Source: Cystobasidium ongulense
Taxonomy: Eukaryota; Basidiomycota; Cystobasidiomycetes; Cystobasidiales; Cystobasidiaceae
Assembly: GCA_022835595.1 (NCBI GenBank)
Contig: BQUP01000001.1
Span: 1,178,001 to 1,242,000 of the forward strand
DNA length: 64,000 nt
Direction of reading: 5' to 3'
Notes under the pieces: model-generated
What the model was told of the DNA's origin: nothing
Seen by the model: the letters and a program-made list of their open reading frames with translations, nothing else
The model's database searches: none
Position numbers and translations under genes: made by a program
Part shown: positions 9,029 to 61,880 of the stretch, in pieces
How positions within the stretch are numbered: position 1 is the first letter of the stretch
How the letters are laid out: each line of letters begins with the position of its first letter

Positions 9029-11728
9029 TTAAACAGGTTGCATGACTTTGGGATAATTCGCTGCAATATGAGCGAATAAAGCGGGATCTTTGTCCGCTAA
9101 AGCTTGAGGCGCTTCACCAAGTCTAGAATCGCATAATGAGCAATCAGCATCAGGCCCCAAGAGTTCTCATCGTAGACTACTACGGTCAGTACTCACGCCA
9201 CGAAAATGGTAGATACACCGGATGATAGAGCGACGTAGCCAAGTGAGTGAGTGATCTGGAAGCCGACTATGAAAGCTACGAGGATGAAAGCAGACAGAGA
9301 CATGTCAGCCCTATTTCAGCTTAGCTGTTTGAAGTAAAAAACGTACCATAGAAGATGATGACAGCGGTATAGTTGCTATTACCCTGAATGTACGAAGGCT
9401 GTTCCAGGTGAACGTATAAGTATCTGTGATTTTCAGAATCGAATCAGACATATTCGGGAAAAGAAAGTATTAGCTAATAGACCTCATTTTCCCCTTTATG
9501 TGCGCCAGTGAGATATGACAGAGGAAAGACTTACGCGAAAAGAGCGCATAGAGCACCACAAGCGTAACTTCCAAATAGCCAAATATTATTGACGAGTGAA
9601 TCGTTAACTAGAGCATCAATACCCCTATCTTTGAGCAAATGCCATGCATCCTTTGCAGCTTGAATGTATGGTTTCCCGAACATTGCAATTTCAATATATG
9701 CGTATCGATCTGCAATGAGAATGATGATATTGATTAGCGATTGCGAAATTGTGTATCGAAGGAGACGGAGGAAGGGGGTAAGAAAAGGGAGGAAACCTAC
9801 TGAAATAATCTACCAACCAACGAATACATCCAACGCAGCATTGAGCTACACAAGCGATAGCAGCACCGACCATATCACCAGAGGCGCGTTCTTGTTGTTG
9901 TAATAAAGATAAAGCAGCACGTAATAGATCTAACAATGCTACTATTAATGAACCTTCTGCAATTGAACCAAATGAATAAGTCATTGCTCTTCTAAAAGAA
10001 GATCTTGCTGCATGACGTGTTTTATTTCCTGTCATTTCAAAATAATATGATCCAAAAACACCAGCTATTGTTGTTAAGGAAACATTTTGCATTACTTGTG
10101 TTGTCCAGCTGTGTCGAAATAAACCATTGCGTTAGCTAAATCGTGAACAAAAAAGGAAAGAAGAGAAATGTTTTGAATGGAAAAAGGAAACTCACTAGAA
10201 TGAGAAGACGCTGAAAATGACAGCGCATATCACCGAACCATTGCCACATTCTCCACCACCTGAAGAGCAGGCATTATCTGCTGAAGGGTTGTATTTCTGA
10301 TAGATGGCAATGGTCTGTAAAGATGAATGAATGAATTAGGATGAATTAGGATATCATGAGAAGGTCAGCGTGAGATCACAAACAGTAGAGGATGGTTTGT
10401 ATGAATTCCATCGACTTACTGTGAATGACCACCAAATAGAGTACGCTGCCTGTAGTACAGTCGTCAACAGCGCGATACCATAGACTGATTTATGTTGATC
10501 TGCGCGAGGAAATGAAGCAAGTGGAACGGGAAAGGAAGAGAAAGGGAGAGAAAGAGAGAGAAAGAGAGAGGAGGGAAAGAACCGAAAATCTACAATTAGC
10601 TATTTTTTCATCCAGATAGAAAATATTCGCCTAACATCGATGCGGAATTAAACTCACTTGCAATCTTGAATACAAACTGCAATAACAATTTCGATAAAGG
10701 GATTCTCCTTCTCATAGGGAAATAACAAATAATTGCTATAACGGCGAATATGGTGAAAATGATAGCACCAGACCAATATCTTTGTGTCCACATATAAACT
10801 GCTAAAGCGACTGAGAAAGCGACTGATAGGAAGAGACATATTTCGAGGATCTAGTGTTTGAATGTCATTTATAGAGATGTGGTAGGAAGAGGCAGGAGGA
10901 AGAGGAGGGAAGGAGACATCAGTCACTTGAAATGGTAGGACTCTCTCCAACACGATTTCAGCTTACAATTTTTGTAAAAGTCTTTGCAATCCAAAGCAGG
11001 AGGATAGAGAGCAGCAATCCAGCAGCAGCGATGAGAGCAAGTAAATATGCAGTATTTAGATTGAGCTATGTATTGCGGAACGTTTTCATATGTGAATCGA
11101 TGGTCAATTTAGCGGAGAGTAGATAGTGTGTTTGTGGGATTTTCCCAGAAATAGGGGATTGTTGGGAAATTGGGAGTTTTGGGAGCAGGCGAGAGAAGCA
11201 TGAGCTGAAGAGCAAGGAAGGAATGGATGACAAGTACTGACCGTCAAACCACCATTGGCGTCACCTCCAATGGAGCCACCTGATTTCGCGACTTGTCGGA
11301 GGCAAATGACAGAGAGAGCGATGAAAGCTAGGAAATGTGCCCAGAAGAGAGCAAAGAAGACGATCTGCGGGTGACTCGACTCTCAGCTTGAAGCAAGCGC
11401 GTACAACATGCAGTATGGAACGACGCACATCATTCCACTTTGGCTTTGAGGGCGTGAACATTTCACCTTGATTGTGGCTGACGAGGATCGGCAATGAGCT
11501 GTGGTAAAGAAAAAACACATGGAAAGACGAGGGGACTCACTACTCTGGCTTGCCAGATGGAGCGACAGGAGGCTGCTGCTGATACTGTCCTTGAGGCTGT
11601 GGGTATGGCTGCTGTCCTTGCATCTGAGGCGGGCCATTGTAGACTTGCTGCTGCTCTGGATAGTATGCCTGCTGGGGATAGTAGGGCTCAGGCTGCCCAT
11701 TCTGGCCAGAGTAGCCCTGCTGGTTCAT
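9029..11728 (-). CDS. PNS1: PNS1/CTL-family multi-pass membrane protein (choline-transporter-like)
   Basis: A multi-exon gene read leftward from ATG 11728 to TAA at 9029-9031. The N-terminus is Gln/Tyr/Pro-rich (MNQQGYSGQNG, then repeated YYPQQ-like units), as is usual for fungal Pns1. After it comes FTPSKPKWNDV and a series of about ten hydrophobic helices, such as IVFFALFWAHFLAFIALSVI, LNLNTAYLLALIAAAGLLL and YWSGAIIFTIFAVIAIICYF. The diagnostic C-terminal block is clear: VMQNVSLTTIAGVFGSYYF, YSFGSIAEGSLIVALLDLL, CIRWLVDYF, and a final stretch with ITHSLGYVALSSGVSTIFVAL ending in NYPKVMQPV. At least eight introns are present; one is only 44 nt and another holds a GA-rich tract near 10528-10580. 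An in-frame ATG also exists upstream at 11797. Family members were named for choline transport, but substrate and role in fungi are not settled. Confidence 0.88.
10528..10580. repeat. GA-rich simple-sequence tract in a PNS1 intron
   Basis: Imperfect (GAAA/GAGA)n run of about 50 bp lying inside an intron of the PNS1 gene; on the coding strand it is a long polypyrimidine stretch, which may strengthen the acceptor. Confidence 0.7.
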
Positions 11729-12440
11729 GATAGGCTCTAGTCGACCCTCTTCAGCTCCAGTATGTGTATATCCTGCTTGTAGATGGAATAGCAGCAAAGT
11801 CGTGTTGTGTATTTCTCAGTAAAGAAGCCCGCTCTGATCGAGAAGGCCAGCCAGCCGAGGATGAGAGAAAGCGAGCGCCTTTCCCTTTGCATTGTAACTT
11901 GTACCGTGCAAGATACTTGCATACTGGCAGAGGAGCACAGAGGACATCCTCGTGTTGAACAATGCATAACGAAGATGATATGCATAAAGAAGGTGATATG
12001 ACTGACTGACTGCCTGAAGCTTGGAGGGATGCACATGGGAGAAGAGCGAGATCAGAAGAAAGAAAGACCCAGCATGTGGACAATATCACCGATAGTCTAC
12101 TCTACTCTTGCACAGTTCAACCACAAGATGGCAAACACATTTCTTTCCTTCTTTCCCTGGAAAAGAGGAACACGACCCGACCGAACCGATCTCTTCATCC
12201 ATCAAGCTGAGCATCCACACATCAAGCTGATTTGATATCGAGCAGTGTTGATTGATGTTGACGACTCGTCGCACACACTAAGCATACCTAATGCCATCTT
12301 GCCTAGCCTACTCCTCTACTCCTTCCCTCGACATGCTCCCTGTCCAGGCGGCGCTTGGATGTTTTCGATATACCTTGCAGCGAGCAGGGAAGCGCGAGTG
12401 AGGTGGATGGCGTCTCATGGGGTGGTCAGGATGCAGTGAG

Positions 12441-12464
12441 GATGGATGGATGGATGGATGGATG
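12441..12464. repeat. (GATG)6 microsatellite
   Basis: Six perfect copies of GATG, followed by a broken copy, about 220 bp upstream of the start codon of the small intron-rich gene. Confidence 0.9.
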
Positions 12465-12574
12465 TGGATGGTGAGATACAGCAGTGGAGTGGCAGCATCC
12501 TTCTCCTCCTCGTGTCTGCCGTCCTCCCTCTTCCTCTGTTCTCGCTTCCTGCCTGTGGCGCATCGAGGACCGCA

Positions 12575-12582
12575 TATAAAAG
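12575..12582 (+). promoter_or_regulatory. TATA box with CT-rich leader
   Basis: TATAAAAG lies about 100 bp upstream of ATG 12682 and is followed by a long CT/CA-rich leader (12596-12680), an arrangement typical of strongly expressed fungal genes. Confidence 0.6.
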
Positions 12583-12681
12583 TAAACATCGACCTGCTTC
12601 TCTCTCTTTCCTTCGCTCCAACCACTCTTCATCTCTCATCTCATCACACCACCCTCATCCACACCACACAGCACACTCACA

Positions 12682-14080
12682 ATGGCATTCGAAGTGCGCC
12701 CTCTTCCCTCGTTCCCGTCCCACTGCCTTGTTGTTGATGACCACCTCGCTGACCTCTATCCCATCGTATGCGCAGGTCGATGACCATGTATCCGTCAATT
12801 CTCCCATCCTTGTAGCACATGGCTGTCCATACTGACTGCGCGCTCCTCTTATTCTCATTCTCATCCTCATCCTCGACTCTCCCTCTGACTCCCTGCTTCA
12901 CCACGACAACCTCTGCCCTCCCACTGCTCGCGCCCTTCCTCCCATCGGTCTGCCGCTCTAGGTCGTCTATGTCCACAAAGGCTACAAGCAGCTAGAAACA
13001 ATAGGCAATGAAAAGATCAACGAGGCTGATTATCAGTAAGTTTCGATTTATCCTTGTTCTAGCCCCGTCATTCTTTTCCCGTCCCCACCCTCTTCGACTT
13101 GCATTCTGGCATTTATTCGTTCTGTCCTTTCCATTCTCGTCCTTCCTTCGCGCTCCTCATCTCCTCTATCAGCTTCTTTCACCTCTCTCCCTCGTGTCTC
13201 GGAGCAAAGAACTGACACCTGTTTACCCTCCTTTCAGCACCTCGAGAGCCAGAATTCAAGCAGTAAGTGCATGTTTGTAACTATACACTCTGAACACTTT
13301 CCGGCTGACAACCTTTATTCGTTCATCTCCCCATCGTCCAAATTCGCATTTCTGCCTCCTCTTCTCCGCCCATCCGCCCCTCGACCCAACGAACATGCGC
13401 TCACAACATCTATCCTCTTGATTCTTCAACCTCTTACAGATCTATGACGCTCCGGTTGCCTCTGGCCACCTGAAAAAAAAGACTTCTGTGAGTAAAGCGA
13501 CATTTTCTTTTTCAATTCCAGATATTCTATAGCTACTGAAACCAACATCCGTCTCCCGTTGTTTCTGCCATTCTAATTCCATGTACTGCTACCTCGCCGA
13601 ACCATTGCGGGACACGCTCGTTCGCATTTCCTCAATCAGAAAGCCACCAAGAAAGTCCCTCTTGTCCAAGTTATGAACATCAATTCTGGCAACAAGTCGA
13701 TAGGTACGTTCCTCCACTCGTCTGTTTTTGGGAAGTGAAGCTTTCTTTTTGATTCACTTCTGATATGACCTTTTCTTCCTTCTTTGAAATTGTCTCTACC
13801 TGTTCTCGTTCCTCTACCTTCTTCTGTCTTTTCCTCTTTATCTTCGCTCTTCCCTGGTTGAACTCGACTTTCCTACAATCCGCATCGCATCCTTTCCTCC
13901 TGTTCCACACCTTCAACAGTTCCCAAGTATGCCATACTGCGACTCATGAACGACAAAGAAGTCGACGAGTACGAAGACCTCTCCTCTTCAACTTCCAGCA
14001 AATCAAGCAAGAAACGCAGTTCTGATGATTCCGATTCAGATCAAGCTCCTCCTACCAAGAAGAAGACTTCCTCCAAGTAA
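12682..14080 (+). CDS. Small, very intron-rich protein of unknown function with charged tail
   Basis: I do not recognise this gene. Seven exons join in frame: 12682-12693 (12 nt, MAFE), 12776-12811, 12962-13035, 13238-13262 (25 nt), 13440-13487, 13640-13703 and 13920-14080, for a 139-residue product; about 70 percent of the transcribed span is intron. The body is a compact mixed sequence (VVYVHKGYKQLETIGNEK, HTSRARIQAIYD, VPLVQVMNINSGNKSIVPKY, ILRLMNDKEVDEYEDL) and the last 27 residues are Ser/Lys/Asp-rich with a KKRSSDDSDSD acidic patch and a PPTKKK nuclear-localisation-like end. An intron straight after the fourth codon, a TATA box and a CT-rich leader resemble the build of highly expressed genes such as those for ribosomal or chromatin proteins. 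Exon joins are consistent in phase throughout, so the gene is likely real; its function is open. Confidence 0.6.
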
Positions 14081-20939: not shown

Positions 20940-23900
20940 ATGGCCAGCCAGCAGCAAGGACAGCTGCAGCAACAGAACGGCCAGCAGGCATCGTCCAGCA
21001 GCAATAGCAACAATGCTCGCGACAACGACAGCCAGGACCCGCAGTTCCAGAAGCTGCAGAAGGCTGCACAGCTGCTGAGTAGCAGAGCGAATGCAGATGC
21101 ACGCGTAGAGCAGGCCTCGGAGCTGAGCGAAGTCCTCAATTGTCAGTCTACAGTCTGAGGCTGTCATGGCTAGCACATCTACAACTTGGCAAGCAATGGC
21201 ATGGCAGAATAGAGACTGACACTTGTGTACAACAGCATCCGCTTCTGGAGACTATGTTCTGCCTCACAACTCGGCATGGCAGCCATACACAAAGACAAGA
21301 ACCGTCAATCTACCAGACGCTCTTTTCGAAGAATACGACTGTGAGCATTCATCATAAACTTTTGCTCTGAGGCACATGGCTGATACAACCCTATCACTGA
21401 AACGACACAAACACAGTACTCCAATGCAGATGCTACATGGGACTCTTCCCTGAGATTGAACGCGCTTGGATCACAGTTGATCATCGCTTGTTCCTCTGGG
21501 ACTATGAAGACGGGTAAGGGAGACACTTTTGATGCTAGTATTAGCTTTAATTTCTGATCCACTTGTCCTACAGATCAAGCTTCACTTCCTTCGAGGAGCT
21601 GCAGGAGATCATCGTCGCTGTAGCTTTGGTGCGGCCGAAGCCTGGTCAGTGGAAAGCTCATAATCTGAGAAATAGCCCTCGCTGATCTCTAACGTGGGTA
21701 TTGCAATACTGCAGGCATATTCATCGAGACCATCACACATCTTCTCATTCTCTCCACCCCTCTAGCAGTACACATAATCGGCTTGTCATATATCCCCGCG
21801 TCATCTAGCAAAACGGGCAAGGCTTCTTTCCAGCTATACATGCTCGACCTCACGATACCCACAGGAGAAGGACGATCCCTCGTCAGTATAGTCGGCACTA
21901 ATAACGGTCGCATATTCGGCTGCTCTACGGCTGCTTCGAGTAATGGTTCTGGTGCCGGCGCAGGCGATCTGTACGAGATCATGTACAACGCAAAAGAAGG
22001 ACTCTTCAGCAAGAAATGCTATCTTCAGAATATATCGAGCGGTGGAAGTGGGGTAGATTGGGTCTTACCTTCCTTTTTGAGATCTGGCTCGTCGGCTGCG
22101 GATTCGCATGTCGTTCAAGTCGTCGTCGACAAAGAGCGTGAATTACTCTACGCTCGACTACGGAATAATTCGATAGAGCTATGGAATATTCAGCGTGGCC
22201 GAGCGGCGGAAAAGGTAGCTACTGTAAAGGATGTGAGACGTCTGGCTGGCATGCTATGTCCAGGTACACCCCTCATCAATTCTACCAATACGCCCTTCGA
22301 TATTGTGGGAATGGAAACTATACCATCCAAAGAAGGCAAGGGTATTGGATTGGTTTGTGTCACCAATACTGGCGTGAGACTCTACTTCACTCATCAAAGA
22401 GGTGGCCTGAGGGGATATGGACCATCACAATCGAATCCTTCGAATCCACCACAACTGCTAGAGCTAGTCCATGTTCGCTTACCACCCAAGAGCACCCCCG
22501 CCAACCCAGGCGCGTACAGTCAGAATACAACCACCAATATCTCAATAGCATCAGTGCCATCGAACGGAGGAGGATTCTTCCTCTCAGCAAATACAGTATC
22601 AGACGATTCTGATGTTTTACAACTGTACGCAAACGATATTGGACGACTAGCAAACAGTGTCGTCTCTGGAAGTCAAATATCGTTGTTCGAAGTTGCTGGA
22701 TCTATACCGATTGAAGGAAGAACATGGGCAATAGCTGAAAGTTCAAGATCAAACTCCCTCTACCCATGCAATGAACTCAAGTATGAAATGCAAAGTACTA
22801 GTTTACAAGGTGGAAAGAGGGATTTCCTATTCTTGACAAATATGGGAATGCATGTTGTTGCGAGACAAAGACCGGTGGATTGCTTGATGGTGTTGCTAGA
22901 TACAGCACCGGGTGCGGGTCGAGATGCTGAGTTGTCACTTTTTGCGGATGCGTAAGCCTAACCATTCCTCAGAATACCTTCCCTTCCTGCTTATTCAAGG
23001 CTAATATCCCCTGCTTGTAGATATGGACGAGATCAAACGTGTGCCATGCTACTGGCTTTCCTTTCTGGTTCAAGCGCGGTCCTCGGTGGAAATCCAGCTG
23101 GAACAAGCGCGCTCAGTACAGAAGCAATTAACACAGCCAGACGGGCGCTTACCGAGCTTGGAGGACGGCCCGTCGTCATTCAAAGAGGAGTTCAAGGTAA
23201 GCATCGCAAGCAGGGCGGGCATAGAAAGTAGCTCATCTGTCATTTCAGTTCCACCTGGAGCGCCGACTGCACAAGATGGCAAAGTCTTTCTATCTGGACG
23301 ACACGAGGCTTTCTCAATATATCTGGCTAGAATTGTCGCTCCGCTTTTGGGCAGCAAGATTGTCGTTCCTGCGTGAGTTTTCCCACCTACTTTTGAATAT
23401 GGCAGGATTGGGCCTGACTTCAAAAATGTGTCAGACCTAGTGCGCAAGCGCCATCGCGCGTCGATAGTGCTGTTCCGGACTCTACACTCATGAAAATACA
23501 GCGAGACCTTAATGGATTGCGAACTTTCCTCGACGCCGACTTCAGCCACCTGTACGGAATGCTGGCGGATCAATGGAGTGGAAGAAGCGATGTCGATGCA
23601 TATCAAGTGAGTAACAGCCACACATTCTGCCTTCTTGCACTCGTGAACTGATGCTGTATTTTTCAGGCCGAGATGGACTCCGTCGATGCTATGCGTCTTC
23701 TGTTAATACAAGGAATCGAAGCCATATCCTTCATCCTACTTCTGATCGACTATAGACTGCCGGACGTAGTAGCCTCGTGAGTTTTCTGCAATGGTGATAT
23801 CGTAGCTGCGGAACTGGGCTGATTCAACTTAACACCCTGTGACAGATGTCAGCCCGATACTGCCCGTTCACTAGCCGAGATGAGCTATGCCGACCTTCTC

Positions 23901-25903
23901 ACAACAAGTAAAGGTCGAGACGTGGCTAGAAGCCTGGTTTCTACCATCATTAACATGCAGATTGGGCAGAATCTGAGTGTTGATGCTATCAGTGACGTGC
24001 TTCAGCAACGTTGCGGTAGCTTTTGCTCGGCAGACGATGTGCTCCTGTACAAGGTGAGCTACATTGATTTACACAGTTCCTTAAGTCATGAGCTGACGCT
24101 GGTTCAATCAGGCCATCGAAAACATTCGGAAAGCCAAATCTGGACCTCCTCAAGAAAGGCTTGCAAGTCTACGAGAGTCTCTCCGCCTCTTCCAGAAGGC
24201 GGCTCTGCACTTGTCTGGTTCCCGATTGGGAGAAGTCGTTTCAGAGTTCAATGGCCTACAATATCAAATTGGCTCCGTGGAACTTGCTATCACATGTGCA
24301 AATGCTTGGGATCCGGAAGAACGAGGCTTGTCGTGGTGGAGAGATGGGCAGCCGCGCAATGATTCTCGAGCGCCGAGCTGGGAGCCTCGCAATTTCTGCT
24401 ACGAGCGGATACTGGAGAGTCTCCAAAGCGTTGATGAGCTACTCAGTCATGCCGTCGAGCGAGGAAATAAAAGCAGCACATCGTCTGAAGAAGCAGATAG
24501 CCTACGCCGAAACACGTATGCCAGAGCTTTAGCTTTACCCGATGAAGCTCTACAGTACAAGCTGTACGACTGGCTCATTGAGCGAGGAATGACGGATCAG
24601 CTCCTGGAAGTTCGCAATGACTTCATCGAGCCTTACCTTCTCCAGGAACCCGCGACGCTCGAGCGATACGACCTGTTATGGCAGTACTATGCAAGACACT
24701 ATCAAAATGCCAATGCTGCTCGAGTCCTTTCTACTTTGGCGGATTCGACAGAATTTGGTCTATCACTCAATAAGCGCCTTGAATACCTCTCACTCGCATC
24801 TAGTAATGCCAAATCGCAATTCCCGAATCCAAGCATGAGACAGGATATCATCAGCTTCTTGACTGAGATTGATGAGAAACTCGAAGTTGGCTCGGTACAA
24901 GTCGAGATTTACCAGCAAATAGAAGAATTGGCAGATCTTGAAGATCAACAGCGGACTACACTGCTGAAGCAGCTCGACGAGCGCTTGTACAGCATAACAG
25001 AGGTCAGTCTTCTCTACTTTGTTCGCTTTACATTCTTATACTCACGCTTCTGATTCTGCATGTAGCTGTATGCCGAATTCGCGCAACCCCTCAACCTGCT
25101 CGACATTATATTGGTCATCTTCCACGTATCCGATCATCGCGACGAGGAAGAAGTAGCGACTACATGGTCGCAGCTGATCACCCGAGGTCAGTCGCTGCAA
25201 TATCTGCATCACGATGCATGAAAGTGATTTTGGCTAAACGCATTTCTTTCGTGTAGTGCAAAATGAAGCAGCTACGCCCGCCGAGACAGTCGATGCTCTT
25301 TCCAATAAGCTCACTTCCCTTACGCGGCGATTTTACCCTTCGGAAGTTGCACTTCCCCTTCGTAAGCTTTTTCTCGTTTTACACTCGAGACTTTCGGTTG
25401 TACTGACGCTTCGGAAATTCCAGCTATCGTTATCAGTCAACTCGAGGAGTTCTCTCTGGTAGACCTCGAGCCTGATGCGCAGTCATCGACGCTGGATGAC
25501 GACAAGATGTGGATTGTAAACTCGCTACATGAGGGAGGCGTGCCATGGCAAGTGATATACGACCACTATGATATGCTTTTCAAGGGACGGGTAGGTTCAA
25601 TAGTCCTTGTCTCCTTTCCCATGCTATTGAGCTAACTCTGCATGCCGCCGACAGATCACGCCCTTCGATAGTCCAGCAAGCCTTGCGCATTTGCTTCCCA
25701 GCATCGTTTGTATACTCAACAGCTGGCTCCGAGAAGTGGTGAACAAGGGGTACAGCAATACCTACGGTGCCTTCCCAGCCAACCAAGTGGAAGAAGCCAT
25801 TGGGGGATATCTTGGAGATGCAAGCTTGGATGTCAATGATCAAAGCCGAGCTTGCCGCGAGAAGCTGCACGAGATCCTGAGAGAGGTGCGCAGAAGGTTC
25901 TAG
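20940..25903 (+). CDS. NUP170: Nucleoporin Nup155/Nup170/Nup157 family, inner ring scaffold
   Basis: Scaffold protein of the inner ring of the nuclear pore. Read from ATG 20940 (MASQQQGQLQQQNG, Gln/Asn-rich leader) to TAG at 25901-25903 across about a dozen introns. The family signature is unmistakable: LLQCRCYMGLFPEIERAW, ITVDHRLFLWDYEDG, then the beta-propeller with VAVALVRPKPGIFIE, LILSTPLAVHIIGLSY, GRIFGCSTA, LYEIMYNAKEGLFSKKC, RGRAAEKVATVKDVRRLAG and FLTNMGMHVVARQRPVD. The C-terminal half is alpha-helical: FSGRHEAF-like segment at 23270-23340, PDEALQYKLYDWLIERGMTD, YDLLWQYYARHYQNANAARVL and LAHLLPSIVCILNSWLREVV. Total length is about 1,300 residues, as usual for the family. The first coding exon is divergent in sequence. 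The three yeast-like names cannot be told apart here. Confidence 0.92.
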
Positions 25904-30338: not shown

Positions 30339-31174
30339 GTCGGCTCGCCAGAAGTTTGAAGAAGTGAAAAAAGGTTAACAGGAAGTAGTGGTGAAAGCGA
30401 AATGAGTGGAGTAGAGAGGTGAAGGACACAATAGGTCTGCAAAGTCGGCCATGAACAGGAGAGTATATTTTCGGAAGCCGTAAAGCGACACCGCTCGTAC
30501 AGCAACACCGCTCGTACGGCAGCACTGCTTCTGCATCGACGAGGAGGGTTTTTTCCTCGATGCTCGCACCGCGGCACTGCTCGAACGACGACACAGCTCG
30601 TACGGCAGCATCGCTTGTTGCATCGACGAGGAGGGTTTTTCCTCGATGCCTGCACTGCAGCACTGCACCTACAGAGACACTGCTCGTACAGCAGCTCAGC
30701 TCACATGGCAGTACTGCATGTGGAGGGCACACTGCTCGTAGAGGGTATTGCAAAGCTTGCGATACCGTACGAAGACATGGAGCGTGATTGTGCTGGACTG
30801 TAAGACGAGCGTACATTGACTGCGCATAGAGTGCCTGCATCTTGCAAGCTGAGCGCGTTGTACAAGGTGACAATGCGTTATGCTGAATTGACCATTCGCC
30901 CATTTCGAGCAGCGTTGTTTGCCTGCACAGGTGTGGCAGTGTAGGTCGTGAATATTCAAGAAATGCGCCTTGGCTCTGCATTGACTATGAAGTGCAACAT
31001 ATCGTACCCATTTGCAGTGTTGCGTGAGTCTTCTGCGAGGGGCAGAGTTCAGAGTAGTTGGAACGCAGTCAACAAGGCAGCCGTGACATCGAGGCGGCCT
31101 TCTCTTTGCCTCGTCATACTCACTGCATACTGAAGCATAATCGGAACTCAGCTCAACCGCTGCACATCACAGCC
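30339..31174. other. Divergent intergenic region with degenerate tandem repeats
   Basis: About 835 bp between the divergent starts of the small Ser/Pro/Arg-rich gene and the Nudix gene. The left part (30483-30735) is filled by imperfect repeats; the right part shows nothing recognisable. Confidence 0.5.
30483..30735. repeat. About 86-bp tandem repeat with internal hairpins
   Basis: The block beginning CTCGTACGGCAGCA recurs at 30511, 30597 and, degenerately, 30683 (period about 86 bp), with shorter CTCGTAC-AGCA units before and after. The first two units each carry GCATCGACGAGGAGGG, a T5-6 run and CCTCGATGC, an interrupted inverted repeat that can fold as a hairpin around the T run. Confidence 0.75.
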
Positions 31175-53166: not shown

Positions 53167-55000
53167 ATGTTCATCTCCAAGCTCAGCTGGCATCTCAGAT
53201 CGCATGTCCTCTTTCCCGTAGTAGACAGCTTGACACGGAGACTGCGGAAGGCAGCCACAGTCAAACAGGTCATCGCTGCCTTCATCGTAACGTCAACTCT
53301 GATTTGGTACGCTTGGAAGCAGCCTCAAATCTCTGTGCAGTCGGGGACTCGTCGTCATCTTCGGATAGCCATATTGGACAACCGCCACGGTCACGATGGC
53401 AAGTATTTGAAAGGCTCGCCAAGCCGAAATTTGCTAATAAATTACTCCTATATCTACATCCTCTCAATCAGAGGTCATTCTTCCGACTTTATGGCATCTG
53501 CAACGTCTGCCGAATGTCAAATTAGATCTTTTCCGCGACCACTTTCGGCCAGGTGCTCGCCAAGCGCTGGAGGAATGGTTCATGGGTTCCTACCATACAT
53601 ACGATTCATTCTTTGAAGAGGATCTATCTGATTATGATACCATTTTCTTGACAACTGGAGACAGAGAGACCGCCCCCCTCTTCGACAGCAGTATAATTCA
53701 TCTATATCCACATCTCAGAGTAGTTGCTATTGCACATGGAGTGCATCGGTACGTAGCCGCAGAAATGCCTTTATCGACAGATAAGCGTACCACAGCAGCA
53801 CCGTTAGCAACACCGGATCTTACAAAGATCAAGGTCATGATGCGTGAAGATCGCTGGTCCTTCCTCTGTCTTTCTCCCCATGTTTCGAAAACCCTTTCGA
53901 GCGTTCTCTCAGTCAATGGGATTAGGGACAGGAACAATTCACTTGCTTCATCCATCGAAACTTTCGTTCCCGTAAGCCAATCCTTCCAAGTCTAGTACAG
54001 CGGAAGACCGCTAACATTCAAAGGCCTGAAATCGCTATGGACAGGTCATGCCGGTAAAGAGGGCAGCTAGAGACTACACCGATCTTGCGAAACCGTTTAT
54101 AGCCTGTATAGTTGGGAGAACTTCAATCTCTCGAGATTATGGTCGGATACTCTTGTTATTGAAGAGAGCTCATTTTCGTGGGTTACATCTTCACTCTACG
54201 ATTGTTTTATGGTTGCTTATCGCAAATGGACTGCTCCCATGGTGTACAGGCAAGCCACGATTATGGACTGGCATCCGTGACGACAAAATTAATTCTCCCA
54301 ACAAGGTCCATTCCCCCAAATCTCGATTCGAGCTCTTAATACTGGGCGAGAACGCGGCCCGAGGTAGGCTACATATACCGGTCCAGCTTGACGGCATCGT
54401 GAAGAAAAGTGGACAGACTACACAAGCAGAAGTAAGTATCAACGTGTCACCTTCACCCTACTACCGTCTCACATATTGCTTCTCCATGCAGTTTTTCCAA
54501 TATCTAAGCTCGGCAGTATGTATAGGATATTCCACCCTGTTTTTGACAAGTAAGAGCTGACAACACATTAGGATGTGGTCATTCCTGCGTTCAGGGATCA
54601 GGTCCGCTACACTGCTACTTCTGCTAGTGGTTCTATACCAGCGGCCGTAATGGCTAGAGTACCAGTCCTAGTCGATAGACAAGAGCTAGCTGCCTATTCA
54701 TACCTCAAACCTCCGGCGTACATACTTCGAGAGCAAAACGAAGATGAAATTGCAGCTGTCGAAAGAGTTCGACAAGATCTCGCACTGAATCCTTTGTCTG
54801 TGGAGACCGACTTGGCGGGTTGGCAGACTTACGAGAAGCACCTTTACGATAGCAATCTCAAGGCTCTAGCGCAAGTTCTCAGGATCAGCCTAGAGGAGCC
54901 GAGCAGCGAGCAACAGTCGCTTGAGGCGAATATCCGGCAGGCGAGCTGGTGGCAGGGCTCTGGCAAATGTCTTCCGCCAGCAACAAGCATAGTACTGTAG
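53167..55000 (+). CDS. Putative membrane-anchored glycosyltransferase, GT4-like
   Basis: Exons: 53167-53398, 53472-53971, 54045-54431, 54492-54515 (24 nt) and 54572-55000, about 520 residues. A short N-terminus leads to one hydrophobic segment (VKQVIAAFIVTSTLIWYAW), as in type II Golgi/ER enzymes. The body has RIAILDNRHGHDEVILPTLW, LDLFRDHFRPGARQALEEWF, SDYDTIFLTTGDRETAPLF, HLRVVAIAHGVHRY and ACIVGRTSISRDYGRIL; the C-terminus has SSADVVIPAFRDQVRYTATS, GSIPAAVMARVPVLVDRQEL and AYSYL, the nucleotide-sugar-facing layout of GT-B enzymes (family GT4 or close). The donor of intron 1 is GC, not GT (see findings). An in-frame ATG at 52873 would add 98 residues of doubtful quality. Activity is inferred from fold-level pattern only. 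Convergent with the GT43-like gene, stops 218 bp apart. Confidence 0.68.
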
Positions 55001-55218
55001 CATTTCTCACACCTAGACTATGCAATCCCAGACATGCGCATGTCTAAAATACAGTAAATAAGAAGTCCGAAACGTCGGTATCGGAGACGTCTGGCCGAAC
55101 AGCTAGCCAGCAGTCTATGTACGTCTTGTGCACTGCAATCTCTATTTCAACAAACCATCGGCCTCGGTTCAGGAACAGATTGTCCCGCCTAACAGCTCTC
55201 ACAGGGCCTTTGAGCCTT

Positions 55219-57126
55219 TCAAGCCTCTGCAGGACGATCCTTCCAGCCCTTCTTCAACCAAGAATTATGCCATGTCTGCCGCGTGTGACAGTTTCAGTTA
55301 AGTTCAAAGGTATCGAATATGACTTCTCAAACTTACATAATAGCACTTTTCTGCCTTTGTGTCCTCACACAGTGGTTCAACGTCTTCTCGTTTTTGATAG
55401 ACTTTCTCGAGGAACTCCGTTTCTCCAGCTGATCGATCAAACGGTATATATTGAGCTGTTGAGTAGAGACAAGATATTCCATCAATGACCTGTTGCGTGA
55501 AAGCAAGCTGTATCACAACTCACGCGGTGCTATTGGCCTACCCACTCCAATCTGCGAGGAGTTGACGGCGAAACCATTCAAGTCTATTGGGAAGACTCGA
55601 TTCGGTAGCCAAGCATGCTGCCAGACTTTAAGCTTTCCTTTCTCGTATACTGGTCCTTCCCCTGTTCATACGTGAATAGGTTAGTCAATAATGAACATTT
55701 GAGAGCAAGTTATCTGCACTTACACCACGAGTTCCAATCTCGGGCTGGATAGTTACCAACTTGCCATACTATAGCTTTCTTGACCTGCAACATGCCAATA
55801 TCATATCAGCCTCAGGGACAGGTTTCACACCACATGAACAAGCAAGGTCGTCTCACCTTCCACATTTTGCGGAGAATCTCGGGCAGTATACGGCAATCAT
55901 CATCGACGTTAAGAACCGGTCCATCGCTGGCAACGTTAAAGTCAAATCAGTACAAGTGACCTGTCCTACCTGTGGCCGGATCGACATACCCGAAGAAAGA
56001 GTCTCGAAGGACAGCTATTGCGTGCAAGACGACTGCGAGAAAGTATAGATGGATTTAGTTTGCTGTGTCATATAACAACCAAATCTAAAGTAGCTTACCG
56101 TTCCACTGCGCTTTACCATAGTGCCGCGTGGGGCCATGCGCCATGTACAGATAGGCTACGAAAGTCGCATCAGCGGAGTATTTCAGAGCGCTTGCAGCGG
56201 TGGGTGGGAGACCTACGAATCCCACTAGCTCTGAGCAGCTCCTCCATTCCAGGTTCCATCTGCGATTCATCTTCGATAACTAGCCACAGGAGCTGTCTAT
56301 CCGCATCTTTCGCACCATCAAGGAAGCCTTCTTCCTTGACCAAATCTTGATAATCATGTATGACTCCAACGTGTCTCTCCATGTACATAGCTCTATCTGT
56401 CCATTTGGACAATTTGCCACCAGGTCCAGTTCTGGTGTAGATGTAGCTTGTTGGTCTGTCCATGTGAAGTCCGGTAAAGTTGTACGATATGAGCATGTCT
56501 GGACAGGTGAATTGATTTGTGAGAAGCCAAGCTACTGCTTCGTCCGTGAGGAATAGACCTTCAAGGACTGAGTGTAATTGGATTTTGTGCAAGAGATATC
56601 TTAGCATTCCGGGGCTATTCCAATTTGTGCCTTCTTTCTTGCTAATCTGACTTCGAAGTGTGTCTAATGTCGGTACAGGGACGTAGAAGGCAGGAGAGTT
56701 GGCATATGCTCCGGGCGTTGTGCAGTCGCAGTCCGGACATAATCGAACAGGGCCGTCGATATCAGTTGAGCCGTAGAATTCGATAGGGTCAATACCGCTG
56801 GTCTTCTCTTTGATGGGTGCCCAGTCCTTGCCTTCGTTGCTCATTTCATTGTTATATTTCTTGACAGGCAGTCTCCTCCCGTCATAATTGCCTTCTTGCA
56901 GTAAAGAGCGACCCCCCGATGCTTTATTCATCACGAGCTGTTCAGCCAGCAGACGCGCTTTCCCGCCCAAGTACTCGTTGTATGAGGCATTCGTGCTGTA
57001 CCCATTCACTCCCGCTGCTTCGTACTCTTGCGGAGGCGTGCTGAAGGCATATCTGAAGAACAGGACGGTTCCTGCAACCGATAGCAGGGCGACGAGGGGA
57101 GTTCGCGACCCTCGCCGCGAGACCAT
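55219..57126 (-). CDS. Putative GT43-like glycosyltransferase, type II membrane protein
   Basis: Read leftward from ATG 57126 to TGA at 55219-55221 with about six introns. The N-terminus MVSRRGSRTPLVALLSVAGT contains a signal anchor (PLVALLSVAGTVLFFRYAF), followed by a stem. The catalytic part has RHVGVIHDYQDLVKEEG, LLWLVIEDESQMEPGMEELL, ASGIPYLYMAHGPTRHYGKA, VVLHAIAVLRDSFFG, then the metal-binding motif GPVLNVDDDCRILPEIL (about 55890-55910), KKAIVWQVGNY, VYEKGKLKVWQHAW, IDLNGFAVNSSQIG and the end FLEKVYQKREDVEPL with a final TWHNSW. Order and spacing recall GT43: VIEDE near the start, the DDD motif, and E-[ST]-x-F-[IL]-E-x-x...L...WH at the C-terminus. GT43 enzymes in animals and plants transfer glucuronic acid or xylose; donor and acceptor here are unknown. 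Family assignment is by eye and needs a profile search. Confidence 0.65.
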
Positions 57127-57506
57127 GCTGTGTGAAGCGGACGTTGTGAGCGCGTGTGGAGTGCGAGTCCTGCTTGAAGATGGACGTATCACGAGTATGC
57201 CGCTGTGTTAGGCGTGGAAGATCCAGATGCAAGCAATCATGATGGCTTTGATCTGTCAGATTATCTGGATCCCACTGTACAGGCAGAATTCCGATCAACC
57301 TCGTCCACAAGCATCAAGGTTTGTTAGATGCATTCAACCAAGGAATGAGCCCAGTGACGCGTTCAGTGAGTGCTGGTGAGGAACTGGGGAGTCTCTCGAA
57401 AGAAAGCGGGTGGTTGTTGTTCATCATGCTACATTGGTATACAGACACTTGGACGCGTTTATATGCTACAGATACTTCTATTTCCATTGACTGACTGTCA
57501 GATTAC
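57127..57506. other. Intergenic region between EMI1-like and GT43-like genes
   Basis: About 380 bp between two genes on the minus strand. The GT43-like frame stays open upstream of its ATG to about 57192. Otherwise nothing recognisable. Confidence 0.4.
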
Positions 57507-57953
57507 TCAATCCAACTTCTTCGCTTCCCAAATATCCTCACTCGAAGGACCGACCCTCCTCTCAGCCCAGTGCTCAGCTCTCCTCTTGACCCACTCTTCC
57601 TCCTTTCTCTCTTCAGGTAGAGTTCTGTTCGCTAAGCAGAATTTGAAGTCCTCCCACTTGGGTGCGCATTCTCTCGCTGTTCCGTATCTATACAGCGAAG
57701 TGAACTGATTGCGGACACCTGTAGGAAACGGTAGTAAGAAGTGAGCAGAAAGTCAGATTGGCGCTTTCACTTTTGTCAGAGAGCACTTGGAAGGAAACGC
57801 ACTGAAACACAACAAGAAGTTGTCAAGCAAGGTAACACAGCTCGGTAGGCCTCCATTGACAGGTAGATTCGTCGCTTGGATGGTTATCTCTTCCTTTACT
57901 ACTTCTGCAAATTTGCCAGATTGGCTGGAAGCACCTTCTTGCGATTCTGCCAT
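57507..57953 (-). CDS. EMI1/DUF3128-family small protein
   Basis: Two main exons read leftward from ATG 57953 (MAESQEGASSQSGKFAEVVK) to TGA at 57507-57509; the intron donor is GTGCGT at about 57803. After an acidic N-terminus come LPSCVTLLDNFLLCF, SVRNQFTSLYRYGTARECAP, KWEDFKFCLANRTLPEERKE and WVKRRAELWAERRVGPSSED, then IWEAKKLD. The C-x(n)-L-x-C-F and C-x-x-x-W-x-x-F-x-x-C spacing gives the four Cys pattern of the Emi1 family. In yeast Emi1 is needed for early meiotic induction and a link to mitochondria has been suggested; the molecular function is not known. Lies between the GT43-like and RPA12 genes and shares a divergent promoter with the latter. Confidence 0.85.
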
Positions 57954-58528
57954 GATTAGAAGACTGTTTGTTGGGAATGTGTCAGCGCATGGTTTTCGTA
58001 GGACGAGGGTGAAAGGGAGGATGTATGCGTGGATGTCAGGGTTATTAATTAAATGGATAGGTTCATCCGCATTTGCTGTCTATGCAGCTCTAGGATAAAC
58101 GAGATTCTATGGTGATCATCATACGTGGAGAGTGTGGGAGGCTAGCAGGAGCAGGCGCAGCAGTGACTGGTAGCGCCTGGCAGCTGGTGAAGGTGGAGAG
58201 AGGCGAACGGTGGTGATGATTGGAACCTACCTTTATACAGATACTGTCCAGCTACCCTTTTGCGCTTCGAGACCCAAGTTCAGGACTGGATGCCTGCGCG
58301 TCGCTATAACAGCATGCTCTAATTGACCACGATGGGGAGTTACACCGCTATTCCCAAACGGTGATTGGTGATTGCTTGTATCTTGGATAGAACGAAAGAA
58401 GAGTGCCTCGAAAATTGCACAAAGTCCAGCTGCATGATCGAGAAAATCAAAAGCCACGGCAGGACTGTACAACTTGGAAACGTTACAATTGCAGCGTTTA
58501 GTCGTCACAATCCGGATTCACTGGAAAC
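57954..58528. other. Divergent intergenic region, EMI1-like / RPA12
   Basis: About 575 bp with no repeat or domain. Presumed shared promoter region. Confidence 0.4.
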
Positions 58529-59243
58529 ATGCCTACTGATACAGGCTCTCGGATAGCCGCAACGCAAGGCTTTGGCGTCCCGAACAGGATAGGCTCGCTC
58601 AACTTTTGCCCAACATGCGGCAACCTGCTGGATGTGCCCAAGGACGACGATGTGATTACGTGTGCTCAATGCGGGCATACAGAAGATGCAGTTCGTAAGT
58701 AGTGGATTGCTTTCACCTCTGTCAGAGTAGCTGACGGATGCCTCTGTATCTGGACAAACGATCACTATATGTTGTTTTCGAAACACCTTGACTACCATAC
58801 CATTCTCCATCAATGCAGAATACGAGAACATCTCAATAACGACAAAATCTCATCCGGATGCTTTCCCTTCGGTCTTGAAAGACAGAAGGAGCGTAGTCAA
58901 GAGTTTGGCCGATAACAAGGACCTGCAAGGGGAGATGGACAAGAAGCAGGAGATTGAGGAGAGGTGTCCGGATTGCGGGAAGTGAGTAGCGCATGGACGA
59001 TTGACTCGTTCTGAAGGACTGTACAAGGCTTGAAAGAATTGACGCGTTGCTGTGACTGTCCCTCGTACACTTCTAGCCCGACTATGACATTCCACACTCT
59101 GCAACTGAGATCCGCAGACGAAGGCTCGACCGTTTTCTACGAGGTGCGTTAGACTCTCTGTTGACAGTTATACTGGAATGCCAGCTAATACACCCACTCT
59201 GCAGTGCCCCAACTGTGGACACAAGCATTCTACGAATAATTAG
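58529..59243 (+). CDS. RPA12: RNA polymerase I subunit RPA12 (A12.2)
   Basis: Pol I subunit combining an Rpb9-like N-terminal zinc ribbon and a TFIIS-like C-terminal ribbon that supports RNA cleavage in the nucleolus. Exons join from ATG 58529 (exon 1 58529-58694) to TAG at 59241-59243, about 140 residues. N-ribbon: SLNFCPTCGNLLDVPKDDD then ITCAQCGHTED. Linker: YENISITTKSHPDAFPSVLK and LADNKDLQGEMDKKQEIEER. C-ribbon: RCPDCGKPTMTFHTLQLRSA, DEGSTVFYECPNCGHKHSTN. The RSADEGSTVFY stretch holds the acidic hairpin needed for cleavage. Three to four introns, one of them interrupting each zinc ribbon. The call is certain. Confidence 0.94.
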
Positions 59244-59671
59244 ACTCTTTGCCACCTGCTTTTTGCAATTCAGATCTGTTCCTGTCGTTGTATCTATAGC
59301 GAACTAGTTGTACTTGGTAGAAGCAGTAATTGGAGGTTCACTACTACCTTGCATTTCTAACGGCTGTTCAGCATCACGGCAGTCTATTATTTGCTGTCTG
59401 TCGTTGCCACTCTGCTAGCGTCTATTGCGCGTGTCTTTCAGGACGGAGAGTCGTGTCACCAAACTCAATCCCACAATTGTGCATCCATCCCATACATTGA
59501 ATCTCTTCTTACTCCAGCACCATCGACCAGCAGTACCGTCACACCAAGTGTCGCTGCTGTCCTTGTTTGGTCGCCGGCTCAGTCGCGGTGCCTCTATAAT
59601 TGAATCTTCCGACACCTTCGCGTCCATCATCAAACAGGAAAGAAAGAAAGATTGACAGATTTCAACCGCAA
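59244..59671. other. Intergenic region between RPA12 and exostosin-like gene
   Basis: About 430 bp. No repeat or domain; the exostosin-like frame is open upstream of its ATG to about 59600 but without an ATG. Confidence 0.4.
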
Positions 59672-61880
59672 ATGATGGGCGCATCACCACGCAGACCAGG
59701 AAGCAGTGGAGGAGCAGGCGGAGGGGAGAGAAGCGGTGGAGCTACAATATCTATACGCGCACCCAGACCAGGGTCCTTCAGTCCTTCGCGCAGGCCGGTC
59801 CTGCTCAGGCTTTCACCTCGACTCGCCGTCTTTGCGCTCATAGCGACGATATGCGGACTGTGGACATTACTGTCTCCTCAAACTTCATTCTTCTCCTCTT
59901 CCATACACGCAATTCCATCACACTTGCCCCCGACAATCCCTGAAAATGCATCACCTCAACGATCACTGCCTGAAATGGTACTGCATGATACACCACCTTC
60001 AGGACAGCGTCCTGAAAGAGATCAGAAGAAACCACTCCCGAATATCAAAGGGCAGCATATCGCTCCATTAGCTCATGTAGGCCCTGCAGCTGCAGCCCCG
60101 GAAGCATCAAGACCAATAAATACGAAAAAGCCAAATCCATTTGAAACGTATTTGTGCGCTGGCGACGAATGGCAAGTGGACGAAGATAATGTATACACCA
60201 AGCCTTTTAGATTTCACGTATACCAGAACATGCCGGATCATCTCTTGAAAGATGTGGTAGAACGCGCTGCACATTGGTGGCAGCCCGATAATGCGTAAGT
60301 ATAGTCGCAGATGCACGTGCTCGAAGGACGCTTTACCACATACTGAATATTCGTCAACTGCCGTCATACAGCGCGAATCAGTTCATCACGGAAGCGCAGA
60401 TATACAAATATCTCGCATTGCATCCATGCCATACGGAGAATCCACTCGAAGCGGACGTGTTCATTGTCCCAGCTCAAACTGTATCTGGTATATGGTTAAG
60501 TAGAGAGAAAGGGCCAAACGGAGAACCACCTATCAAGGATGAAGGTGCATCCTACATGAAAGAAGGTAAGTCAGCGTACCTGCCCAACCGTGCACGCCTC
60601 TGACTCGTCTGCTTTACAATAGTCATGAACTGGATCAAAACGCAGAGAACAGGCAAACGTTTCGATGGACGTGACCATTATGTCGTTTCCGTTCCATGGT
60701 GGTTAGGCGGCCGACCTTACGGAGGGCACGTAAATCTCATCGGGGTAGAGGTGCCTATCTCGTTTGGAACACATGAAAAATTCAGTGATACCCTCTATCT
60801 ACGCGCATCAAACGACATCATCATTCCTTACCCTGATCCGGATTCTTACGAGTTTTATACGGATGAAATGCTCGATAATGTTGAGAAGGATCTTCATATG
60901 GTTTTTGTTGGACAGAACCGAGTCGTCGCGCCGTGAGTAGCGTCCTTTCTCCCACTATCGTGTCTCGAACACCATAGCTAAACGGTCCTGCTCTCGATTA
61001 GCGTGCGACAAAAAGTGTGGGATCAGCTGAAGGCCTACAATGAGCGCCGAGGTGACCGACCAAAGGCTCTTTGGCACCATCTCAAGGTACGTCAGCACTT
61101 TGAATGATAGTAGCTCGGTCATCCAACGCTTTGTTCACCTCCAGAATCGCGATGCTATCGGTGACGTGAAGAAGAAGACTGCTCGAGCCATCTTTGGTGA
61201 GTTTGCAAGGATGCTATGATTGTTGGAGTTGCACCTAACTACGCCTATGCATTCGTTCTCACAGGTCCCGTCATGAAAGGCGACAGTTATTCCAGTCGGC
61301 GTTTATTCTCCCTACTTTTCGCAGGGACTATTCCAGTGATTATATGCGATTATTGCATGCTTCCATACCAGGACATGCTAGACTATAGCAAATTCGCGAT
61401 ATTCCTGCCCGAAAGTGAAGTATTAGACAATCCCGAGTATGACATTTTCGATGTTTTGGATGCGATACCTCAGATAGAACTCGATAGGCTCCGTAAGAAT
61501 GGAAGAATAGTCAAGAAACACTTCGTTTTCCATGAAGGAAAACCGCAACCTGGCGACGCGTTTGATATGCTGGTGAGCTCTTGAGCCTGGATTCAAGCAG
61601 CCATTCCGTGCTGACCAGAAACCTTGAATAGGTTCGGGAACTATCATTGACACACCTCCGGAACCGAGGCCTCAAGGCTATGATGTTGCGAGGATATGGC
61701 GAAGATGACGAGCAGAACTACCCCCTGCATGAGTCGATACCTGTGCCAGGTCAAGAGCTCGTCTTTGCTGGGCCTGGTGTGCCGGAAGCGGCCTTGAAGT
61801 TGAAGGAAGAAAGAGAAGTTGCCGATGCGCTCATGCAGAAGGCACTGCCCAAGGACCAAGCGCCGCTCGACGAAACCTAG
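59672..61880 (+). CDS. Exostosin-family (GT47-like) glycosyltransferase, type II membrane protein
   Basis: Read from ATG 59672 (MMGASPRRPGSSGGAGGG, Gly/Arg-rich) to TAG 61880 with about six introns. A signal anchor LAVFALIATICGLWTLL is followed by a Pro/Ser stem and then the exostosin domain: PFRFHVYQNMPDHLLKDVVE, ITEAQIYKYLALHPCHTENP, LEADVFIVPAQTVSG (the conserved P-x-x-A-D-x-F-[FIV]-[VI]-P motif), RDHYVVSVPWWLGGRPYGGH, NDIIIPYPDPDSYEFYT, LHMVFVGQNRVVAP, GPVMKGDSYSSRRLFSLLFA and GTIPVIICDYCMLPYQDMLD, ending with YSKFAIFLPES. These are the regular blocks of the family, including the C-terminal G-x-I-P-V-x-x-x-D motif for the nucleotide sugar. Animal members polymerise heparan sulphate and plant members make xylan, xyloglucan or pectin side chains; the fungal product is unknown. 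About 620 residues. Confidence 0.85.

Follow-up and report, generated by a model that had tools for sequence, protein, structure and literature searches.

A GT43 gene near a GT47 gene in Cystobasidium ongulense: probable chance neighbours and candidate enzymes for acidic glycans

Do three predicted genes that lie within 9 kb of the Cystobasidium ongulense genome belong to one pathway, and what might their products make? The question arose from a stretch of 64,000 nucleotides (the window) in an assembly of 19 contigs totalling 19.77 Mb. A preliminary description had read a GT4-like enzyme (gene A), a GT43-like enzyme (gene B) and an exostosin/GT47-like enzyme (gene C) as a possible small dedicated cluster, and had named chance co-location as the alternative. 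The gene models of A, B and C were rebuilt by hand from splice sites, and all three are open to the stop; 16 of their 17 introns are GT-AG. Family membership was judged by the Pfam cut-offs, with additional NCBIfam (E ≤ 10) and PDB sequence searches for gene A. The reading that we somewhat favor, which is built on sequence comparison, is that B and C are Golgi-type glycosyltransferases for acidic glycans of a wall or capsule layer, containing glucuronic acid (GlcA) and xylose (Xyl), and that the two genes are near each other by chance.

Gene B (55219 to 57126, minus strand) encodes a GT43 protein of 484 amino acids in eight exons (57126-56217, 56155-56099, 56032-55990, 55926-55857, 55784-55724, 55661-55524, 55455-55337 and 55275-55219), and all seven introns are GT-AG. 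The GT43 profile PF03360, for which the cut-off is 27 bits, matched residues 278 to 469 of the spliced protein with 85.5 bits (E = 5.8e-24); the proposed assignment thus survived the profile test. The protein also has the acidic triad, a WH motif and the Glu expected of the family. The PDB search with B at E ≤ 1 listed 10 sequences, four of which were GT43 glucuronosyltransferases (E = 3e-10 to 6.3e-6), while the remaining six were unrelated and weak (E = 0.16 to 0.69). A profile made from three GT43 proteins of this genome retrieved the same four glucuronosyltransferases (5.6e-13 to 7.2e-11) and nothing more at E ≤ 0.01. The closest solved relatives of B are the animal enzymes GlcAT-S, GlcAT-I and GlcAT-P. 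Residues 281 to 322, which begin with the WLVIED motif and run up to the AQWN site, are encoded at 56100 to 56286 (minus strand) with one intron crossed, as located by alignment and the GlcAT-I motif positions in Table 2 of PMC4449007. The acidic triad DDD (residues 345 to 347) lies in the exon at 55857 to 55926 (minus strand), placed there by the gene model, the PDB match and the paralogue alignment. In the alignment to GlcAT-S, both D345-D347 and E438, the latter aligned with Glu281 of GlcAT-I (numbering of PMC4449007), are present in B.

Gene C (59672 to 61880, plus strand) encodes 606 amino acids in seven exons (59672-60294, 60372-60565, 60623-60932, 61002-61086, 61145-61196, 61265-61572 and 61632-61880). 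Its exostosin/GT47 nature was borne out by PF03016, which matched residues 177 to 477 with 109.2 bits against a cut-off of 33.4, and its PDB matches (five sequences) were EXT2 and EXTL3 only. GT47 was found at three places in the genome, namely C, a paralogue at C1:2361.5-2363.4 kb (contig C1) that is 42% identical to C with a PF03016 score of 118.4 bits, one very short exon of its model being doubtful, and a distant paralogue at C9:121.4 kb. The Pfam search found no GT64 match in C or in its C1 paralogue. Both B and C have a hydrophobic N-terminal window (best 19-residue mean of 1.74 at residue 11 for B and 1.99 at residue 51 for C, with another inside the domain of C at residue 435), which is consistent with the type II membrane topology that had been suggested for them.

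The third gene did not gain the same support. Gene A (53167 to 55000, plus strand) is predicted to encode 523 amino acids in five exons (53167-53398, 53472-53971, 54045-54431, 54492-54515 and 54572-55000), and its first intron (53399-53471) is the sole GC-AG intron among the three genes, with the donor GCAAGT. Its glycosyltransferase nature had been judged by eye only. With A, Pfam at E ≤ 1 returned no glycosyltransferase family and one 17-residue match, below the cut-off, to an unrelated family; NCBIfam at E ≤ 10 and the PDB sequences at E ≤ 10 returned no matches. The proposed GT4/GT-B membership was therefore not confirmed by any profile or solved-sequence match. The genome search with A found no second copy, all four matches being at its own place. 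The coding signal of A was 0.008 log-odds per codon, still above its own other two frames, as compared with 0.057 for B and 0.075 for C; the training set (open reading frames of at least 250 amino acids) took in the first exon of B and nothing of A, so that the comparison favors B over A. The two largest later exons of A, each modeled alone, gave structure models with a mean pLDDT (predicted local distance difference test) of 43.1 and 42.6. In the third exon (54045-54431), a stretch of about 45 residues looks foreign to a GT-B protein, and the gene model there may be wrong. Since B and C pass their family profiles and A matches none, two of the three proposed enzymes are firm, and A as a glycosyltransferase is a guess.

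GT43 is not confined to this locus. The protein search with B found GT43 genes at no fewer than four places in the genome: B itself, a tandem pair on one strand of contig C4 (C4:800.0-801.8 kb and C4:802.3-804.0 kb) and a fourth gene at about C4:1783.6-1785.2 kb. A Pfam search of exons had found just two GT43 places, and therefore family counts obtained in that way are lower bounds. Each paralogue has a gene model and a PF03360 match above the cut-off (82.2, 74.6 and 71.1 bits), and their identity to B is 41-44%. When B and the three paralogues are aligned, all four proteins agree at the W-x-x-x-E-D motif, at the acidic triad DDD and at the terminal Trp. Equally invariant are the '[ILVM]D..GF' motif at its Asp and Gly-Phe and the Glu that aligns with Glu281 in GlcAT-I (position from PMC4449007). 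Three of the four end this region in WH with its His, and one tandem member (B3) reads WW. About 100 residues preceding the stretch aligned with the TPTY motif (residues 128 to 225 of B, with CPxC, R-L-H and PD-L) hold residues conserved in all four proteins, beyond the Pfam match. We take the invariant Glu to be the catalytic base, and His308 of GlcAT-I, the His of WH, to be a GlcA-specificity residue with a role in donor choice.

The rest of the genome provides a setting for such enzymes. GT64 matches were obtained at four places (C1:2893.9, C1:3016.4, C2:1278.2 and C2:1280.1 kb), of which the two on contig C2 (C2:1278201-1280514) are close together and probably form a tandem pair. GT90-family matches occur at five places and CAP59-family genes at three, and one gene belongs to the UDP-glucose/GDP-mannose dehydrogenase family (PF00984; UDP, uridine diphosphate; GDP, guanosine diphosphate). 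CAP59 and GT90 families have been linked to the making of the capsule in Cryptococcus (PMC8355462, PMC12493134), and UDP-GlcA and UDP-Xyl are predicted products of most Basidiomycota (PMC8092308). This gene content is consistent with a fungus making acidic glycans decorated with GlcA and Xyl. The CAP59-family genes, the richness of the genes in introns and the assembly size suit a basidiomycete. Two protein pieces did not refine this placing: a 371-aa IMPDH piece matched best the PDB chain 4af0 of Cryptococcus neoformans (551 bits), with an Ashbya chain next (513 bits), and a 172-aa phenylalanine ammonia-lyase piece matched best 1t6j of Rhodosporidium toruloides. The combination in one genome of at least four GT43 genes, three GT47 genes and four places with GT64 is less ordinary than fungal GT43 as such.

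In the favored reading, the family membership, the conserved catalytic residues, the paralogues and the UDP-glucose dehydrogenase family gene were observed; the Golgi location, the donor, the acceptor, the product and the absence of a functional link are what we infer. B and C would be type II membrane proteins of the Golgi that build or decorate acidic GlcA- and Xyl-containing glycans. B would transfer a β-linked sugar with inversion, its DDD triad holding the metal and the nucleotide sugar and Glu438 serving as the base. UDP-GlcA would be the likeliest donor of B and UDP-Xyl the second, and C, working as GT47 enzymes do, would most likely transfer its sugar from a UDP donor. The two genes would be members of families that are small and scattered through the genome (at least four GT43 and three GT47), not of a pathway cluster. 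Judged by their sequences, the GT43 proteins are most likely Golgi enzymes; they are candidate β-glucuronosyl- or xylosyltransferases, whose product would be an acidic glycan of the wall or of a capsule-like kind.

Several observations weigh against this reading. In all four GT43 proteins, Trp replaces the Arg of the QRN motif of GlcAT-I (Trp321 in the AQWN site of B), and the stretch aligned by eye with TPTY is TRTG in three of them and TRTS in the fourth. The substrate site is therefore altered throughout the set, and UDP-GlcA is not assured as the donor. B also fails the strict filter of PMC4449007, which calls for at least three of eight motifs: it carries motifs 2 and 5 at their proper positions, and motif 7 only as a stray match in its first half. 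In the same scan of B and two paralogues, B2 carries three or more motifs and B3 carries motif 2, the motif 7 matches of B3 lying off the aligned Glu. PMC4449007 describes its own filter as very conservative; the filter does not define the GT43 family, and the profile score of B is far above the cut-off. Finally, a GT43-GT47 pair named in advance would fall within 5 kb by random placement with a chance of 0.3% (two GT43 and three GT47 loci), an estimate that predates the fourth GT43 gene, a third GT43 locus raising it slightly; the pair here, however, was selected after being seen.

One alternative, which we regard as improbable, is that GT43, GT47 and GT64 enzymes build a glycosaminoglycan-like chain of GlcA and N-acetylglucosamine, attached through a linker in the way of heparan sulphate in animals. 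All three families are indeed in the genome, in the numbers given above. On the other hand, the heparan C5-epimerase family had no match in the genome by a search that was positive in two of 14 control genomes, and C and its C1 paralogue have no GT64 match, whereas exostosins generally have both GT47 and GT64 domains (PMC9178029). The Sulfotransfer_2 search found no match in the genome and none in the control genomes either, and therefore says little. A bolder form, in which the GT43 set, marked by Trp in place of Arg at the substrate site and by its extra conserved region, and the stand-alone GT47 and GT64 proteins constitute a fungal glycosaminoglycan-type branch making an undescribed GlcA-containing polymer, with B as a founding member of the missing β-glucuronosyltransferases of fungi, is also an improbable one. 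Another alternative takes the altered substrate site at face value and supposes that the GT43 proteins use another UDP- or GDP-sugar, no longer UDP-GlcA or UDP-Xyl. The change from Arg to Trp and the altered TPTY-like stretch, both in all four proteins, speak for such a change of donor, but the Glu and the DDD triad are kept in all four and the His of WH in three of the four, and we consider it unlikely.

A plant-like role, in which a GT43-GT47 complex makes a β-1,4-xylan-like backbone from UDP-Xyl, appears slightly more doubtful. In plants, IRX10 is a GT47 protein. IRX9 and IRX14, which are GT43 proteins, are thought to act together with IRX10 in one complex, and synthesis of the xylan backbone is held to involve GT47 proteins (PMC4449007). 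However, B retains both the WH motif and the DDD triad, and the published fungal GT43 proteins placed in the tree of PMC4449007 fall in an animal clade. The solved relatives of B are likewise animal glucuronosyltransferases, but this argument is weak because no plant GT43 chain was among the PDB matches.

The arrangement of the genes bears on whether the locus is a cluster at all. Between B and C lie, as first proposed, an EMI1-like gene (57507 to 57953, minus strand as B, two exons; PF11326, 92.7 bits) and an RPA12-like gene for an RNA polymerase I subunit (58529 to 59243, plus strand, four exons; PF01096, 61.7 bits). A and B are convergent, and B and C are divergent around these two inserted genes; therefore, A, B and C share no promoter. 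None of the GT43 and GT47 paralogues found adjoins a member of the other family. By Pfam, none of 10 open reading frames around the GT43 pair on C4 and the GT47 paralogue on C1 matched a glycosyltransferase family: five matched other families above the cut-off (SF3b1, Nup93/Nic96 and, in three, DOCK), one had a match to PPR families below the cut-off, and four had no match. Three open reading frames near the fourth GT43 gene had no Pfam match. A GT90-family gene at C4:818303-818977, outside the scanned stretch, is separated by about 14 kb from the tandem of GT43 genes; this may be chance. With unrelated genes inside and no repeated linkage at the paralogous places, the locus does not have the make-up of a biosynthetic gene cluster. 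For an assumed, not counted, number of 60 glycosyltransferase genes, some pair fell within 5 kb in 58% of random draws (32% to 92% for 40 to 100 genes), and three fell within 9 kb in 2% (0.6% to 8%). Thus a dedicated cluster, in which a GT4-like enzyme, GT43 and GT47 act in sequence on one unusual secreted or wall polysaccharide, is the least likely of the explanations: the closeness of three putative glycosyltransferases, the low chance of a pre-named pair and the GT90-family gene near the tandem speak for it, and the inserted genes, the gene orientations, the lack of glycosyltransferases among the 10 scanned frames and the lack of a family match for A speak against it. Chance co-location of B and C, the alternative that the preliminary description had named, is probably the better explanation, since some close pair is expected by chance at the gene numbers assumed.

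Elsewhere in the window, a nucleoporin gene with matches to PF08801 (Nup133 N-terminal-like) and to the nucleoporin C-terminal family PF03177 lies at 21693 to 25050, and an 86-base tandem repeat (2.2 copies, 84% matches) lies at 30505 to 30695. At 10001 to 14000, the GC (guanine-cytosine) skew changes from +0.19 to -0.29 between adjacent 2-kb blocks, which are the extremes of the window. The window gave no Rfam match at gathering scores and no tRNA.

How new, then, is a GT43 gene in a fungus? It had been supposed that the family is rare or poorly described in fungi. Scarcity is a fair description, but fungal GT43 has been in print since 2013-2015. A survey of 103 fungi reported GT43 in three Basidiomycota (PMC3652786), a count that may differ after the correction, which removed nine unpublished genomes (PMC3893384). 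In 2015, GT43 was described in Rhodosporidium, Rhodotorula, Puccinia and Melampsora; the proteins that entered the tree grouped in animal clade D, and about 400 fungal genomes yielded no further GT43 (PMC4449007). Our literature searches, judged by title, found no assayed fungal GT43, no GlcA-adding capsule enzyme and, in the search directed at Cryptococcus, no paper on a fungal exostosin. The legend of a 2025 figure of the cryptococcal capsule pathway likewise names no GlcA-adding capsule enzyme (PMC12493134). Fungal GT43 proteins are natural candidates for the GlcA-adding capsule steps, and four in one genome permit a direct test. The set also bears on how GT43, with its central part in the proteoglycans of animals and the xylan of plants, came to be so patchy in fungi. 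The best use of the finding would be as a candidate list for fungal glucuronosyl- or xylosyltransferases.

Among known systems, the animal GT43 β-1,3-glucuronosyltransferases GlcAT-I, GlcAT-P and GlcAT-S share with B the Pfam family, the DDD triad, the aligned Glu, the Asp/Gly-Phe motif and the terminal WH. The similarity is low (best PDB E of 3e-10 for B alone), and B differs from GlcAT-I in reading QWN for QRN, the GT43 set of this genome in reading TRTG or TRTS at the TPTY-like stretch. Between that stretch and the W-x-x-x-E-D motif, B has about 23 residues more than GlcAT-I (50 versus 27, by motif positions), and the conserved region ahead of the domain also sets the fungal set apart from the animal enzymes. 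C resembles the GT47 domain of EXT2 and EXTL3 in PF03016, part of its C-terminal half aligning, but has no GT64 match and aligns with EXT2 by sequence over just about 90 residues. In fungi, GT47 has been described in Cryptococcus and Mucoromycotina (PMC8355462, PMC5872309), and a lichen study reported GT47 together with GT64 in Tremella and Cyphobasidium genomes and considered an acidic polysaccharide (PMC8355462). Both families co-occur there as they do here; the term GT43 is absent from the text of both papers. The GT43 proteins of Rhodosporidium/Rhodotorula, Puccinia and Melampsora are likewise fungal, and those in the tree of PMC4449007 group with animal proteins in clade D; the present genome has at least four copies. 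Since fungal GT43 was already in print, the contribution is not a new kind of system; it is a further genome, with an expanded and somewhat deviant GT43 set.

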